Below are positions 17,024-27,513 of a stretch of 28,611 bases of DNA, piece by piece (position 1 is the stretch's first letter; each line of letters opens with the position of its first letter). The position numbers were made by a program, and so were the translations under genes. The notes below the pieces were generated by a model, which was given only the letters and a program-made list of their open reading frames with translations, had not been told where the DNA came from and searched no databases. Source of the DNA: a virus. The stretch covers positions 1 to 28,611 of IMG/VR virus record IMGVR_UViG_3300047409_000087; one strand, 5' to 3'.

Positions 17024-17058
17024 CAAATCCATCTTAGTCTGCTAATGAGTCTAACTCG

Positions 17059-17478
17059 ACTAGGCGAGTATAAATAGAGTTTAAGCCTAGTGCGGCTTCG
17101 CCGATTGTCTGCATATGTCAGTAATCGGTGAAGCATACTCAGCAAAGAGTATGGGCGGTTCTGCAGAGCATGACCCAAAAAATATGCTGACGTTGTGATT
17201 AGGTTTTGTAGTTTAGTAGACCACAACGTAATAACTAAACTAACTACTCGTGCTTAATTGTCAATCTGACGCACGGTAGTTAATAATGATTGACCACTTG
17301 TCGGCCAGTGTTAAAAGACCGACAGCTTTCTCTTAGTAGTTGGATTGGTTGCATAGTAGCTGAAAACTAACCACTTATAGGTTAGCAGCAAAAAGCCTAA
17401 CCATTATAGGACTAGTGATTATAGCCCGCAATAGGGACACTAGTGGGATGATAACTATGCAACCTATCGAACTACTAA
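17059..17478 (+). ncRNA. Candidate large multi-stem RNA (or structured leader) between early genes
   Basis: The 468 nt between genes holds seven stems: 17059-17065/17085-17091 (7 bp), 17095-17106/17123-17134 (12 bp, one G-U), 17134-17140/17147-17153 (7), 17190-17197/17222-17229 (8), 17241-17253/17271-17282 (12, one bulge), 17299-17304/17319-17324 (6), and a 20-bp split stem 17333-17341+17347-17357 with 17454-17464+17470-17478. The last encloses three hairpins (17367-17385, 17396-17410, 17411-17444), a closed multi-branch fold that ends 2 nt before the AGGAG of the next gene. No open frame fits. The class is unknown to me; a riboswitch-like leader is the alternative to a free RNA. Confidence 0.45.
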
Positions 17479-20371: not shown

Positions 20372-21940
20372 ATGGCACTAAGTTCAATAGTAAAGAAAAC
20401 GTGTAAGCAATGCGGAAAAGTTGCAGTTGAAAAAAGCCGCATTAACTTTGGCACGACTAAGCTAATCACATTAGAATGTGGTCACGTAACTAATGATGAA
20501 GTCTTGTCAACGGCTGACTACTCATCCATCATCTCAAGTGATGGTAGGAAGTTAATGCCTTATCAAGCTGAAGGAATTAAGTTCCTTGAACAAAGTGATG
20601 CAAGGGCATTACTTGCCGATGAACAAGGCTTAGGTAAGACAATTCAAGCACTCGCGTTGATTAAGCTTCACCGTGAGTCACTTCTACCAGCAGTAATAGT
20701 AACGAAGACTACAATCAAGATGCAATGGCATCATGAGATTATTCGCTGGTGTGGAGTGCAAGGCTTTCTAACTCAAGTAATCAGTAGTGGAAAAGAGAAA
20801 GCCGCACCGGGATTTGACATCTATGTCGTTACATATGATTTGCTTAAAACAGATGCATTTGACATGATTGCAGATAAGATTAAGTTTGTAGTCATTGATG
20901 AATGCCAAGCAATCAAAGACCATACAAGTGGAAGAGCTAAAGCCGTTCAGAAGATTTGTAAGAATGTAGACCATATCTTGCCAATGAGTGGAACGCCAAT
21001 TAAGAATAATGCAGGTGAGTATTTCACAGTATTGAATCTGATTCAACCACGGCTATTTCCACAATATACACGGTTCATTGAGAATGACTGTGATAGTTAC
21101 AATAACGGCTGGGGATACAAAGTAGGAGGATTAAGGAATCCTGAAGCATTTCATGAGAAGACTAAGGAATTCATTCTAAGGAGAACGAAAGCAGAAGTTC
21201 TACCAGACTTACCAGAATTGAGTCGTAAGTTCTATCACGTAGAGCTAGACAAGAGATTGAATAAAGCATACGCCGCTGCTTTGTCAGAACTAGATGACAT
21301 GATGTATAACGAAGATATGGATAGCATGCAAAAGAATAGTAACATGCTAGCCATTATGACGAAGATGAGACAGATTACAGGCGTTAGCAAAGTAGAACAA
21401 TGTGTTGACTTTGTTACTGAGTTCATAGAAAGCAATGATAGAAAGATAGTAATCTTCGTTCATCATCATGCCGCTGTCAATAAGCTAGGGAGTGATTTGA
21501 ATGAATGGCTTACAACTCATGAGCTCAAGCCGGCGTTGAACTTGAATTCAACTCTAGACAGCAATGCAAGACAAGACTTAGTAGAGAGATTCAAAGAGCC
21601 AGAGTATCGCGTATTGATTGCATCAACGTTAGCGGCTGGCGAAGGATTGAATCTTCAATTCTGTTCTGATGCAATCATGTTAGAGAGACAATGGAATCCT
21701 GCAAACGAAGAACAAGCAGAGGCACGCTTTCACCGGTTTGGACAAATGAATAAGGTTAACGTAACGTACATGCTAGCGAGTGAAACGATAGATGAATACT
21801 TCACTGAGTTAGTAGAACAGAAACGTGCGATTGTTGCAAGTACAATGGATAACAAAGAGATAGCGTGGGATCAATCATCACTACTTACTGAACTTGCTAA
21901 TATTCTCGTGACGAAGGGGAAGAAGGCATGGAAATTATAG
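20372..21940 (+). CDS. SNF2-type superfamily 2 helicase/translocase
   Basis: 522 residues. An N-terminal zinc motif (CKQC at 11-14, ECGH at 35-38) precedes the motor. Motif I is ADEQGLGKT (82-90), motif II DECQ (176-179), motif III MSGTP (205-209). The second lobe carries STLAAGEGLNLQ (motif V) and EEQAEARFHRFGQ (motif VI), which is the SNF2/Rad54 arrangement; DECQ instead of DEAH is common in phage members. Such proteins translocate on duplex DNA and take part in replication, recombination or removal of bound proteins. It is the largest early gene and lies upstream of the nuclease and ATPase genes. Confidence 0.9.
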   Translation: MALSSIVKKTCKQCGKVAVEKSRINFGTTKLITLECGHVTNDEVLSTADYSSIISSDGRKLMPYQAEGIKFLEQSDARALLADEQGLGKTIQALALIKLHRESLLPAVIVTKTTIKMQWHHEIIRWCGVQGFLTQVISSGKEKAAPGFDIYVVTYDLLKTDAFDMIADKIKFVVIDECQAIKDHTSGRAKAVQKICKNVDHILPMSGTPIKNNAGEYFTVLNLIQPRLFPQYTRFIENDCDSYNNGWGYKVGGLRNPEAFHEKTKEFILRRTKAEVLPDLPELSRKFYHVELDKRLNKAYAAALSELDDMMYNEDMDSMQKNSNMLAIMTKMRQITGVSKVEQCVDFVTEFIESNDRKIVIFVHHHAAVNKLGSDLNEWLTTHELKPALNLNSTLDSNARQDLVERFKEPEYRVLIASTLAAGEGLNLQFCSDAIMLERQWNPANEEQAEARFHRFGQMNKVNVTYMLASETIDEYFTELVEQKRAIVASTMDNKEIAWDQSSLLTELANILVTKGKKAWKL

Positions 21941-22074
21941 ATTTTGAAGGAATCAAATCTGCTATTCAGATACTTCAAATGAATCAAAGTGTTAAGAAAG
22001 TAGATGGACCAAATTGGTCTGTTTATTGGGTTGGTAGTATTATGAGAGTTGATATTAAAAAGGATAGCAAATGA
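21928..22074 (+). CDS. Small protein overlapping the helicase end
   Basis: ATG 21928 to TGA 22074, 48 residues, with AAGGGGAAGAAGG upstream, overlapping the helicase by 13 nt and the next gene by ATGA. The sequence is FEGIKSAIQILQMNQSV, then GPNWSVYWVGSIMRVD, a helix followed by strands. No family recognised. Confidence 0.55.
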   Translation: MEIIDFEGIKSAIQILQMNQSVKKVDGPNWSVYWVGSIMRVDIKKDSK

Positions 22075-22676
22075 CTAACCTAAAGAGTGTATCTGAAGGA
22101 TATAACAAATTCTGTGGACCAGCCGTTCTTTCAATATTAACAGGTAAGAACACAGATGAATGTGCCAATGCAATTGGCTATATCAGTGGTGAGTATAACA
22201 TTAAAGGAGTGAAATTAGAACATCTTCTAGCCGCAGCTAACAGACTAGGATTCACTAGCACTAAAGTAGACGAAGGCACTAGTTTGTATGGAACAATCAT
22301 TCGATTAGTGAATGACGATGGAATGTACATTGTAACAGTTCCAAATCACTTTGTAGTCATAGAAGTAAATAACAAGAAAGCTTACTTCTGTGACAATCAT
22401 ACGAAAGAGCCGATACCGGCTGCAAGTTCAGCAAGATTGAGTCAGAGAGTTGTTGCCGTTCATAAAGTTTCACGTAAGAAAGAACCAGTTTTAGTTAAAG
22501 AGTACATCAAGTTGCACAAGGTTCAAACTACAAATTCAATCAGTATTCGAGTAATGAGAGTATCTGAGTTTGATGAAGGAGAACCTAATCACTCAAATCT
22601 TGGAATCATTGTAGTAAAGAATGAGACTGAACTGAATGAGCTGATTGATAAGATAAAGGAGTCTTCATATGAGTGA
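22071..22676 (+). CDS. Predicted cysteine protease, C39/papain-like
   Basis: 201 residues. YNKFCGPAVLSILTG puts a Cys at residue 15 at the start of a helix, as in papain-like C39 peptidases. After a second helix and a strand block, TVPNHFVVIEV supplies the His (93) and AYFCDNHTK the Asp or Asn (108/109): the Cys-His-Asp/Asn order and spacing (about 78 and 15 residues) of that fold. Residues 130-201 form an extra C-terminal part with no motif. C39 domains normally cleave leader peptides at double-Gly sites; a phage early version may act on host or phage proteins. Activity is inferred from motifs only. Confidence 0.65.
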   Translation: MTNLKSVSEGYNKFCGPAVLSILTGKNTDECANAIGYISGEYNIKGVKLEHLLAAANRLGFTSTKVDEGTSLYGTIIRLVNDDGMYIVTVPNHFVVIEVNNKKAYFCDNHTKEPIPAASSARLSQRVVAVHKVSRKKEPVLVKEYIKLHKVQTTNSISIRVMRVSEFDEGEPNHSNLGIIVVKNETELNELIDKIKESSYE

Positions 22677-23028: not shown

Positions 23029-23219
23029 GAAAGCTAAATCAATTTCTAACAGAAATCTTCACAGAAGATGAGAAGATTATCTTCAAGTCTGGACATGGAA
23101 TACTTCCAGGTTCGTGTCCTAATTGTCAGGGAATTCTTGATTTTGGAAGATTAGATGAGGATGAGTTGATTTGTCGAAATAAGTGTGGGTGGAAGTTCAC
23201 AAAGGATAATAATGGCTAA
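23025..23219 (+). CDS. Small zinc-ribbon protein, 64 residues
   Basis: Overlaps the previous gene by 4 nt. The C-terminal half has CPNCQG at about 31-36 and CRNKCGWKF near residue 50-58, a four-Cys zinc ribbon. The N-terminal part is a helix (LNQFLTEIFTEDEKI). It lies directly upstream of the nuclease gene and ends inside its first codons. Confidence 0.65.
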   Translation: MRKLNQFLTEIFTEDEKIIFKSGHGILPGSCPNCQGILDFGRLDEDELICRNKCGWKFTKDNNG

Positions 23220-24102
23220 GGTTAACATAGTCTTTGACGCCAGTCAATTCGACATGTTCAGGCTGTGCGAACAGAGGTTTAACTTACGATACAATCTAAA
23301 TAAATCCTTACCAACAAAGTCAATGCAGTTGGACAGAGGAACGCTAGTTCACATAGCCTGTGAGATTTATTATCAATGTCTTAAAGATGGTGCAAGGTAT
23401 GATTATGCTGTGAATGCCGCTCTAGTGAAAGTCAAAGAAGCCGGTGTTATTGAAACTGATTTAGATAATGACATGATTAACAGAGTATTAGAGGTAATGG
23501 AAGAGTACTTTGAATACTGGCGAGTTGCCGACCAGAGTTTTGAGATCAATCATGTAGAGAATCCATTCATTTATCTATTGTATGAGGATGATGAAATTAA
23601 GATTCACATGGCAGGTAAGATTGACCTATTGTTTACTGACAACAAGTATACTAATTGTCCATTAGACCACAAGAGCTATGACAGGACATCTGAAGTAGAG
23701 AGGATGAGTAATCAGTTTAAGAACTATTGCTATGCTACAGAAAGTAATATCCTAATAGTAAATAGGATAGGCTTTCAAAAGACATTAAAGCCGCACGAGA
23801 AGTTCAAACGCATTCCATTAAGTTATGATCCATTGATACTAACGGCCTGGAAATCTAACGTAGTCAAAGTAATCCGTGACAATTACTTACAATGCGTAGC
23901 CACTAACGAATGGCCATTGAATGAAACGTCTTGTTACAAATACAACAGGAAGTGTGAGTATCATGCTATCTGTGACAGCAGTGGTGAAGAAGCTAAGCTG
24001 TATAAGCTAGCAACTGACTACGTTGATATAGAGGCTTGGGATGTTACGAAGGTTCTGCGTAAGAGTTCGGCAGTGTTAGAAGATAAGGTTAAAAACGAAT
24101 GA
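23212..24102 (+). CDS. Cas4/RecB-like PD-(D/E)XK nuclease with Fe-S cysteine set
   Basis: 296 residues from ATG 23212, which has AAAGGATAAT upstream; nine upstream codons are open but unlikely. FRLCEQRFNL (C19) opens the domain; RGTLVHIACE has the conserved His 47; GKIDLLF (D138), then PLDHKS (D152, K154) is the PD-(D/E)XK core; NQFKNYCYA gives the QxxxY motif. Near the end C241, C248 and C254 (CYKYNRKCEYHAIC) with C19 make the four-Cys 4Fe-4S site of Cas4/AddB. Such nucleases resect DNA ends for recombination. No other cas gene is nearby, so this is a phage recombination nuclease rather than CRISPR adaptation. Confidence 0.85.
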   Translation: MAKVNIVFDASQFDMFRLCEQRFNLRYNLNKSLPTKSMQLDRGTLVHIACEIYYQCLKDGARYDYAVNAALVKVKEAGVIETDLDNDMINRVLEVMEEYFEYWRVADQSFEINHVENPFIYLLYEDDEIKIHMAGKIDLLFTDNKYTNCPLDHKSYDRTSEVERMSNQFKNYCYATESNILIVNRIGFQKTLKPHEKFKRIPLSYDPLILTAWKSNVVKVIRDNYLQCVATNEWPLNETSCYKYNRKCEYHAICDSSGEEAKLYKLATDYVDIEAWDVTKVLRKSSAVLEDKVKNE

Positions 24103-24950: not shown

Positions 24951-25388
24951 ATGAAAAAGAAGACAAAGAAGTCCAAGCCTAACCGAACTTTAGACGGTCT
25001 GAAAGTAGTAGATGCTGATCACAATTTGATTATTGATATCACTAAAGGTGATGTCAGTCATTCAAATAAGAAAGACCCAGCTAATTGTGCAGCCGCTCAG
25101 GCTATTAAGAGGCAATTTAAGTGCAAGAAAGTTAAAGTATTTATGTCTAGGACATACGTTCAGGAAGGTAATAAATATGTGAGATATGTAACACCGCAAG
25201 CTGTTAATAGGGAAATCACATCATTTGATCGCGGGAGCGGCTTTGAACCTGGTGAATATAAAATCAATAAGCCTCCAACTTCACAGAAACTTGGGCATTA
25301 TAGAGGTAAGAAGACAAAAACCACTGGAGCTAAAAGAAGTAAATATCATTTTACAGCTAACGTCAGAAACTGGCAGGTAAGTAAATGA
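24951..25388 (+). CDS. Conserved-looking early protein, unknown function
   Basis: 145 residues. VVDADHNLIIDITKGDV, then DPANCAAAQAIKRQF, a strand KVKVFMSRTYVQEGNKYVRY, and FDRGSGFEPGEYKIN: a strand-helix-strand core with conserved Asp and Gly turns, followed by a basic Lys-rich tail. The family recurs next to Sak4-type ATPases in environmental phages, function unknown. Its stop overlaps the ATPase start. Confidence 0.7.
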   Translation: MKKKTKKSKPNRTLDGLKVVDADHNLIIDITKGDVSHSNKKDPANCAAAQAIKRQFKCKKVKVFMSRTYVQEGNKYVRYVTPQAVNREITSFDRGSGFEPGEYKINKPPTSQKLGHYRGKKTKTTGAKRSKYHFTANVRNWQVSK

Positions 25389-26311
25389 AAGCAAGTAACA
25401 TGATAGTCGACTCAGTCATTAGTATGCTAATGAAAGGCCCTTATGGCCACTCTAAGACTTGTTCAGCAGCTACATTTGCCGTTGACGGACCTGTCTGGCT
25501 TGCGTATTGGGACAAGAAGAAGCCTATTGAGCTAGTTAATTATTTCCACAAAATAGTCAAACGTCCAGATCTTCTAGACAGAATCGAATATGATATCTAT
25601 GGAGCAAACAACGCAAACGAATATCTCAATAAGTTAATAGCGTTATCCAAAGATTGCCGTTACTTTGCAATCATTAATGATTCAGTCACGCAGATGACTA
25701 GTGGAGCCGTTAACTGGTCTTTGAACTTCAACGATGATAGAAAAGGGAAGAATAAACTTAAGCTCATTCCAGACTTTGATGAATACAAAGTAGAAACGTC
25801 GTTAGTCACTCAGGCATTAGACATCTGCCGCTCTCTTCCTTGTCACGTCATTTGGACATGCCACCCAGTTCCTTCTATTAAGATTGAAGGTTCTGGTGCT
25901 AGCATGAAAGTAACCAAAACCAATCCAATCGTTACATATGGTAGCAAGGTAGCCGGTATTGTTCCGGGCAATTTTAGTGAAATTTATCACTTTAGCAAAG
26001 TCAATGATTGGGACTCAACGGCTGGCAAAGCTTCGACTAAATACATTGTAGATACTGATGCAGTGGGTGATGACTTCGCTAAGTCTAACATTGGACTTAC
26101 TGGTCAGATGGATATTACTAACAGATTATTTTATGAAGTTTGGAAACAAAAGGTTGTGGATCATAACAAGGAGGTGACTGATTCAGTAATTGAACAAAAC
26201 AACAAACCTATTAATCCATTTGATATCATTAAAACAGTAACAAATCCAACACTACCAGAACCAAATCAAACAAACAAAAAGTGGAACTCTGAAAAGGGAG
26301 CTTACGAATGA
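25385..26311 (+). CDS. Sak4-like RecA-fold ATPase
   Basis: 308 residues. Walker A is GPYGHSKT (18-25), with Ser where Gly is usual before the Lys. A strand-Asp (YFAIINDSVTQMT) serves as Walker B, and HVIWTCHPVP is the sensor-like strand of phage RecA-fold proteins; the C-terminal part has the VYG/KVAGIVPG segment before the last strand. Sak4-type proteins pair with single-strand DNA-binding proteins to anneal or exchange DNA strands. It is followed by an HNH gene and then a DUF669-like gene, consistent with a recombination module. The last 50 residues are Asn/Pro-rich and disordered. Confidence 0.8.
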   Translation: MKASNMIVDSVISMLMKGPYGHSKTCSAATFAVDGPVWLAYWDKKKPIELVNYFHKIVKRPDLLDRIEYDIYGANNANEYLNKLIALSKDCRYFAIINDSVTQMTSGAVNWSLNFNDDRKGKNKLKLIPDFDEYKVETSLVTQALDICRSLPCHVIWTCHPVPSIKIEGSGASMKVTKTNPIVTYGSKVAGIVPGNFSEIYHFSKVNDWDSTAGKASTKYIVDTDAVGDDFAKSNIGLTGQMDITNRLFYEVWKQKVVDHNKEVTDSVIEQNNKPINPFDIIKTVTNPTLPEPNQTNKKWNSEKGAYE

Positions 26312-26769
26312 TGAAGCCTGACAAGTTCTATGATAAGGCTAGACTTGTTCGCAGACTTACAGTTAGAACAAGAATCATAGATGGTCATTGGCTTTGGATT
26401 GGTAAGATAACATCAGGTGGACGTGGTGTTATGACAGTTGGTGGTAGATTAAAAGGTAAAGATATAGAAGTTCATAGATTATCAGCGTTTATTTATTTAG
26501 GATTAGATCTTAAAGATTCCAATTCACATTCTTTGCATAAGCCAAGTTGCACATATAGAAATTGTTGGAATCCTGAGCATTTGCATGTCGGTAGTCATGC
26601 TGATAATATGAAAGATATAATGTTACTACCAAACTTCAGATGTGGACATCCAAAGGAGGGTAATCTATCGTTTAGAAGCAATGGGCATCATAGGTGTCTC
26701 ACATGTCATAGAATAAGTGTTAAAAATAGTAGAAAGAGACAACTCAAAACCAGCGTAAAAACAACTTAA
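26308..26769 (+). CDS. HNH endonuclease (homing-type)
   Basis: 153 residues, starting with two Met codons that overlap the ATPase stop. GHWLWIGKI, then VHRLSAFIYLGLDL, then LHKPSCTYRNCWNPEHLHVG is the HNH_3-type core: the His of VHR, the Asn of CWNPEHL and its His. CGHP and CLTCHR at the end add a zinc site. A/T-rich codons mark it as a recent arrival. Homing enzymes of this kind move between phages and often sit between essential genes, as here between ATPase and DUF669-like genes. Confidence 0.85.
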   Translation: MMKPDKFYDKARLVRRLTVRTRIIDGHWLWIGKITSGGRGVMTVGGRLKGKDIEVHRLSAFIYLGLDLKDSNSHSLHKPSCTYRNCWNPEHLHVGSHADNMKDIMLLPNFRCGHPKEGNLSFRSNGHHRCLTCHRISVKNSRKRQLKTSVKTT

Positions 26770-26782
26770 GGAAAAACAAACA

Positions 26783-27163
26783 ATGCGTGCAATTCTCACA
26801 CCGGATGACTTGAAAAAGGGTGATCTCGTTGAACCAGGTTGGCAGCCATTAGAAGTTGTTGATTACTCAGAGAAAGAAGCTGAGACTGATGGTAGCACTA
26901 ACTGTATCTTCAAGTTCAAGATATTTGATGGTCCACATAAGGGAGTTACTCCCAGTAAGTTGTTTAATGAAAAGGCTCTTGGCTTTGGTAAGTCTCTGTG
27001 GAAGGCACTTGGTCTTCCATTTGATGCTGAGAAGGGCTATGAGCTGAGTAGTGAATTGTTTAAGGCTCAGATTGGAAAGAAGGTTAAGGGATATATTAAG
27101 CGTGGTAAGAGCAACAAGGGCAATGAATTCAATGACCTTGCTGATTTCATGCCGTTGACATGA
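26783..27163 (+). CDS. DUF669-like recombination-associated protein
   Basis: 126 residues, AAGGA about 12 nt upstream. LTPDDLKKGDLVEPGWQPLE, then an 'f.v..G....' block (KFKIFDGPHKGVTPSKLFN), SLWKALGLPF and ending KVKGYIKRGKSNKGNEFNDL follow the layout of phage DUF669-like proteins, which occur beside single-strand annealing ATPases and may bind DNA. The match is by pattern only. It was probably adjacent to the Sak4-like gene before the HNH gene came in. Confidence 0.6.
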   Translation: MRAILTPDDLKKGDLVEPGWQPLEVVDYSEKEAETDGSTNCIFKFKIFDGPHKGVTPSKLFNEKALGFGKSLWKALGLPFDAEKGYELSSELFKAQIGKKVKGYIKRGKSNKGNEFNDLADFMPLT

Positions 27164-27369
27164 TTACAGATCAAGATATTGACAATTGGTTCACATACCA
27201 TTCTCCAACACCTGAACAGCTACCAAAGTATCAGGCTATTAGAGAAGCAGGTAAACATTTAGCAAAGACGATAATGGATAATACACCATCAAGTGCAGAT
27301 CAGTCAGCCGCTATCAGGTTAGTTCGAGAAGCGGTTATGACTGCAAATGCATCTATTGCTTGTAGTTAA
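27160..27369 (+). CDS. acb2: Acb2/Tad1-hairpin-domain anti-defence protein
   Basis: 69 residues, start overlapping the previous stop (ATGA). NWFTYHSPTPEQLPKYQAIR, then SADQSAAIRLVREAVMTANA, is the signature of the Acb2/Tad1 hairpin domain (DUF7681): '..F.YH.P...Q...Y..iR..ak.lA..I....P.s.d...Air.leeaVMwANAaIA'. Acb2 oligomers trap cyclic di- and trinucleotides made by CBASS defence, and related proteins trap Thoeris signals. Tyr13 and the basic residues at 28 and 32 are candidates for ligand contacts. The length is typical. This is a strong family match, though its ligand cannot be read from sequence. Confidence 0.85.
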   Translation: MITDQDIDNWFTYHSPTPEQLPKYQAIREAGKHLAKTIMDNTPSSADQSAAIRLVREAVMTANASIACS

Positions 27370-27513
27370 ATAGAAGATAGTCGTTCCGGCTTCAGTCGGC
27401 AGGCTGACACTGATAAGGTTAGAATATCTCCTTTAATCACCTTGGGAGTGAGTAAGGGGGCTCAGCAGTTCTAGCAGCCGGACTCATTTGTTGCTTTCAA
27501 AAGGAGAAAAAGA
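27370..27513 (+). other. Non-coding stretch with hairpins after the acb2-like gene
   Basis: 144 nt without a plausible gene. TCAGT/ACTGA and AAGGT/ACCTT pairs are followed by a nested stem TGAGT...GGCT/AGCC...ACTCA (about 27449-27486), then a T-rich TTTGTTGCTTTC and the AAGGAGAAAAAGA of the next gene. It could be a weak terminator for the upstream operon or a structured leader. G+C is higher than in the genes around it. Confidence 0.4.

Follow-up and report, generated by a model that had tools for sequence, protein, structure and literature searches.

A 69-residue hairpin protein of the Acb2/Tad1 family, predicted to be a cyclic-nucleotide sponge, with an altered last-helix ligand side

Sponge proteins sequester small alarm molecules produced by infected bacteria, and can thereby reveal the chemical signals used by the hosts of a phage. 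The experimentally proven cGAMP sponge Vs.4 (Acb2) of phage T4 is a hexamer held together by L29, A66, A73 and A77, in which Y8 and F82 stack on the cGAMP bases and polar contacts are provided by Y8, H11, K23 and R79; the S74N substitution abolishes its function, and T12I likewise breaks it (Jenson et al. 2023, PMC10097602). Loss of activity was also described for F82C and Y8A, and a lowered affinity for T68M, in the Panoptes papers (PMC12657218, PMC12657230). Other described members are Acb2 (p26) of Pseudomonas phages (PDB 8H2J, 8IXZ), the hairpin-only Acb2 homolog 43 of 76 aa with a solved structure (PDB 9PTQ), and Tad1 of a Clostridium botulinum prophage (CbTad1; PDB 7UAV, 8KBE), a protein in which the N-terminal beta-sheet domain is part of the gcADPR pocket (PMC12043709).

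The window analysed here is the whole 28,611-nucleotide stretch of the IMG/VR virus record IMGVR_UViG_3300047409_000087 (positions 1 to 28,611). An open reading frame on its plus strand, from an ATG at 27160 to a stop ending at 27369, encodes a protein of 69 aa (MITDQDIDNWFTYHSPTPEQLPKYQAIREAGKHLAKTIMDNTPSSADQSAAIRLVREAVMTANASIACS up to the stop), and all motifs quoted in the original prediction are present in this translation. The gene belongs to a rightward run at approximately 18.2-28.6 kb, and the genes of the left half, including those for the terminase large subunit and the major head protein, run leftward. The following features are discussed below.

20372-21940, rightward run: SF2/SNF2 helicase
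23185-24102, plus strand: PD-(D/E)XK (RecB-like) exonuclease (PF12705, 49.7 bits; phrog_1218 exonuclease, E 6e-20)
25385-26311, plus strand: Sak4-like P-loop ATPase / ssDNA annealing protein, so named by its relatives (P-loop GPYGHSKT)
26308-26769, plus strand: HNH endonuclease (phrog_826, E 1e-15)
26783-27163, plus strand: DUF669 gene, probably SSB-like (PF05037, 22.4 bits against a cut-off of 21)
27160-27369, plus strand: Acb2/Tad1-hairpin protein, 69 aa, predicted cyclic-nucleotide sponge (PF24729, AlphaFold2)
27370-27513, plus strand: non-coding gap 3' of the sponge gene, 144 nt (folding z -1.18)

The reading frame was confirmed to be a real gene. Comparison with its closest syntenic relative, locus L005, gave a dN of 0.21 and a dS of about 1.6, which is near saturation and makes the dN/dS ratio approximate; the differences are distributed over the three codon positions as 19/8/32, with the majority at third positions. 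A dN well below dS and the third-position excess are those of a selected coding gene and indicate purifying selection.

The 69-aa protein belongs to the Acb2/Tad1 hairpin family, as had been predicted. It matched the Pfam model PF24729 with 50.6 bits (E 2.3e-13), against a curated cut-off of 27 bits, over the entire profile (positions 1-58 of 58), and T4 Vs.4 matches the same model positions with 71.4 bits. The two-helix hairpin that had also been proposed was recovered by AlphaFold2: the monomer model, calculated from an alignment of 66 relatives with a mean pLDDT of 95.3, contains a short N-terminal helix (residues 4-10) and two long antiparallel helices (21-41 and 46-67), as in Acb2, and no strand. 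The top Foldseek matches in BFVD were mostly named Acb2/Tad1 hairpin (TMq 0.71-0.89 for ranks 1-10), while in the PDB six of the eight best ranks were occupied by chains of Vs.4 (7UQ2), CbTad1 (7UAV/7UAW/8KBE) and Acb2 (8H2X), with E-values that are individually not significant for this short helical query. Apart from Vs.4 itself, matched by construction because it was included, a profile of T4 Vs.4 and phage homologues ranked next Acb2 homolog 43 (E 0.0034, the best PDB match after T4), CbTad1 and p26 (E 0.6-0.9).

A phmmer search of PDB sequences with the window protein returned only chance matches to designed helical proteins, a profile of its subfamily alone retrieved no Acb2 or Tad1, which were reached with the broadened profile described above, and BLASTP produced no alignment with T4 Acb2. 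An hhalign profile comparison with T4 Acb2 gave a weak match (E 0.066) in the same register as the multiple alignment. The protein had no match in NCBIfam or PADLOC, and its PHROG assignment is phrog_1454 (66 bits), whereas T4 Acb2 belongs to PHROG 717 (PMC10097602).

The window protein shares with T4 Vs.4 the Pfam model and the arrangement of a short N-terminal helix followed by a two-helix hairpin, with about 28% identity over the alignment, but lacks the approximately 20-residue extension that separates the long helices of Vs.4. Acb2 p26 is of the same fold class (Foldseek rank 8), but is longer (93 aa) and of very low identity. The second long helix of CbTad1 aligns without gaps with that of the window protein (SSADQSAAIRLVREAVMTAN), including M60 and N63; however, of the CbTad1 helix set R-E...T..E....W.N only the N is found in the window protein, which carries A46, D47, R53, R56 and T61 instead. 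The N-terminal beta-sheet domain of Tad1 is absent from the 69-aa protein, and anti-Thoeris action by the Tad1 mechanism is unlikely because this domain builds the gcADPR pocket. Acb2 homolog 43 has R-E-K...T...E...F, as in Paenibacillus and Gordonia phage homologues and unlike the window protein. The homologues from Paenibacillus, Gordonia and Tunturiibacter phages (e.g., MH460826, PQ201087, PP887698) are hairpin-only proteins 46-58% identical to the window protein and are often annotated as hypothetical; the set R-E-T/N-E/D-W/F-R is found in the Paenibacillus and Gordonia proteins, while the one from the Tunturiibacter phage belongs to the window's type.

According to the multiple alignment, the functional residues of T4 Vs.4 correspond to those of the window protein as follows: Y8=Y13, H11=P16, T12=T17, K23=R28, L29=L34, A66=A51, T68=R53, A73=A58, S74=V59, A77=A62, R79=A64 and F82=A67. 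The pocket tyrosine Y13, the basic R28 (conservative for K23) and the helix cap T17 are kept; Y13 is present in 89 and R28 in 94 of the 96 subfamily members, and position 17 is T in only 45 of them. All hexamer-interface equivalents, L34, A51, A58 and A62, are kept as well (A51, A58 and A62 in 89, 90 and 95 of 96 members, respectively). The T4 pocket residues H11, R79, F82 and S74 and the affinity residue T68 are replaced by P16, A64, A67, V59 and R53. A full Acb2/Tad1 signature had been claimed for this protein; the claim holds for Y13, R28 and the hexamer alanines, but the equivalents of T68, S74, R79 and F82 have been exchanged. As judged from the alignment, the N-terminal pocket side and the assembly residues are thus mostly retained, in contrast to the pocket side on the last helix. 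Since the half of the pocket formed by the second long helix differs, the ligand range cannot be transferred from Acb2 or Tad1, and the ligand may not be 3'3'-cGAMP. Arg67 of the Pseudomonas-phage Acb2, which we take to be a contact for cyclic trinucleotides, would map to A46.

Position 53 is one of six positions at which a coordinated, near-invariant switch separates two subfamilies. The 96 window-type sequences carry A46 (90 sequences), D47 (all 96), R53 (95), R56 (all 96), T61 (95) and C or L at position 68 (94), whereas the 85 sequences of the Paenibacillus/Gordonia type carry R (83), E (85), T (81), E/D (85), W (84) and R (85) at these positions; the contrast is sharpened by the separate seed queries from which the two types were gathered. 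The matching helix of CbTad1 has R, E, T, E and W, and the R-E-T-E-W-R set is thus largely seen in Tad1. Common to both types are F11, Y13, H14, P16, Y24, R28, P43, A51, A62, N63, A64, I66 and A67. Intermediates at the six positions occur in Brevibacillus (AEREWR), Lactococcus (AETRFI) and T4 (LDTKWQ), and the homologue in Mycobacterium phage Myrna is window-type. In a tree of 166 rows built without the six switch columns, the two types cluster, with 3 changes among the typed rows; with 63 columns its forks are poorly resolved, and T4 Vs.4 forms a long branch. Resampling on a helical wheel gave P 0.08 for clustering of the switch positions alone and P about 0.03 for clustering away from the hexamer alanines, so that a weak lean away from the hexamer face is suggestive at most.

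A tblastn search revealed 120 phage records with relatives at E<=0.01, mostly of Paenibacillus, Gordonia and Mycobacterium phages and all with less than 60% identity, and strict peptide patterns recovered at least 169 loci in IMG/VR, with identities of 57-76% for the best 80. At the DNA level, no similarity to phage records was found for the 19-28.6 kb part of the window. Acidobacteriota and Planctomycetota genomes contribute many of the relatives in the subfamily. A relative in Acidicapsa dinghuensis lies near integrase and endolysin genes and is part of a prophage. Of 11 bacterial genomes with a relative, one has a SMODS-type cyclase; this count says nothing either way, since a prophage gene need not co-occur with the defence that it counters. 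Homologues in Paenibacillus and Brevibacillus phages (L083:1995-2210 and L184:592-798) are annotated as 'putative phosphomannomutase'; for Acb2/Tad1 hairpin proteins this label looks like an annotation error that has been propagated.

That the gene closes a recombination module, as stated in the original prediction, is borne out by the gene order: helicase, exonuclease, P-loop protein, HNH and DUF669 genes are followed directly by the sponge gene. The product of 25385-26311 itself matched no Pfam or PHROG family, and its homologues in L014, L025 and L060 match phrog_124 (Sak4-like) and AAA_24; the DUF669 homologues in L005 and L025 are weak matches to phrog SSB families. The HNH gene that separates the Sak4-like ATPase and DUF669 genes has probably been inserted as a mobile element, because in L005 these two genes nearly abut with no HNH gene between them. 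The sponge gene and the upstream gene, which matches DUF669 just above the cut-off, overlap by four bases (ATGA, 27160-27163) that contain the ATG of the former and the TGA of the latter; the sequence ahead of this start shows no clear ribosome-binding site. Translational coupling to the DUF669 gene, which had been proposed, is therefore likely. No promoter above chance level was detected near the sponge gene.

Only L005 among the relatives found has the same order of Sak4-like ATPase, DUF669, sponge and zinc-ribbon genes. A recombination module is also located near the sponge gene in L014, L025/L026/L054 and L060, where DUF669, if present, is placed after the sponge; in L002 a Sak4-like gene precedes it, and in a Paenibacillus phage the homologue is found two genes downstream of an SSB. 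Most of the approximately 80 nearest relatives have unrelated adjacent genes (terminase, portal, methylase, glycosyltransferase, unknown). Given such varied neighbours, the gene moves between phage genomes, and its context carries little functional information.

With good confidence, the gene can be regarded as encoding a minimal, hairpin-only Acb2/Tad1 sponge that would form a hexamer and bind a cyclic (oligo)nucleotide of a host CBASS-type defence. We infer that the protein would be made together with the phage DNA replication and recombination proteins, in the early or replication phase, that its helical-hairpin subunits would assemble into a hexamer, and that this hexamer would bind either a cyclic oligonucleotide or another, related cyclic nucleotide from the CBASS-type defence and hold the signal below the level activating the suicide effector. 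CBASS-type signals are a first guess at the target; the earlier proposals that the sponge is expressed early and that the phage meets CBASS or Thoeris go beyond the evidence. Such a sponge would also act as a trigger if the host had a Panoptes-like guard (PMC12657218). The genomic setting could alternatively mean that the hairpin has taken on a different role, perhaps that of a small recombination helper partnering DUF669/SSB or the Sak4-like ATPase, with signal binding lost. The coupling to DUF669, the recombination modules near the sponge in the loci named above, L005 and L002 included, and the Paenibacillus homologue behind an SSB would all fit such a role, but most of the 89 neighbouring proteins of the relatives are unrelated to recombination, the Gordonia homologues follow a portal gene, and the pocket Tyr and Arg are retained across all these settings, which makes loss of signal binding quite improbable.

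A sponge of the same fold could also be specialised for another signal, such as a different cyclic trinucleotide or larger ring, or a nucleotide outside those assayed to date, with R53, R56 and T61 reshaping the pocket. The coordinated switch at six positions, the correspondence of position 53 to T4 T68, where T68M lowers affinity, and the weak lean of the switch positions away from the hexamer face are in favour of such a specialisation, as is the abundance of relatives from Acidobacteriota and Planctomycetota genomes, whose defence signals, to our knowledge, have been little studied. However, the two groups came from two seed searches and intermediates exist in Brevibacillus, Lactococcus and T4, so that the switch could reflect gradual drift within one function; this specialisation is a tentative possibility. 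A stronger version, in which the large branch with the rebuilt ligand face (A-D-R-R-T-C/L), composed mostly of uncultured-virus contigs and Acidobacteriota- or Planctomycetota-linked genomes, sequesters an immune signal unbound by characterised Acb2 and Tad1 proteins, appears rather unlikely; if true, it would point to an unrecognised nucleotide signal in hosts linked to these phyla.

The family being already known, specialist interest is confined to the branch-wide difference at the ligand-side residues of the last helix. No solved structure was found for the window's branch, whose presumed ligand face differs from that of every solved member found, and no ligand, oligomer or defence assay of the subfamily was found in the literature. 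The window protein is small, single-domain and easily made. If the switched residues set specificity, the ligand range would become readable from sequence for hundreds of phage genes annotated as 'hypothetical' or 'phosphomannomutase'.

The non-coding gap downstream of the sponge gene (27370-27513) ends in sequences that pair with each other (GTTCCGGC...GCCGGAC), but its folding is no better than that of shuffled sequences, no credible Rfam match was obtained, and no similar DNA occurs in homologous loci; its interpretation as a structured element was ruled out on these grounds. A strong hairpin (AGTATGGGCTACTA...TAGTAGCCCATACT) lies between the DUF669 and sponge genes of L005 (L005:3097-3200) and is absent from the window. 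Elsewhere in the rightward run, a 201-aa protein (22071-22676) with no homologue in related loci resembles C39 peptidases at a score below threshold (16.5 bits, cut-off 22). A Pistol self-cleaving ribozyme (Rfam RF02679, 41.7 bits versus a gathering threshold of 34.5) is located at 17054-17118 on the plus strand, between the leftward structural and the rightward early genes.
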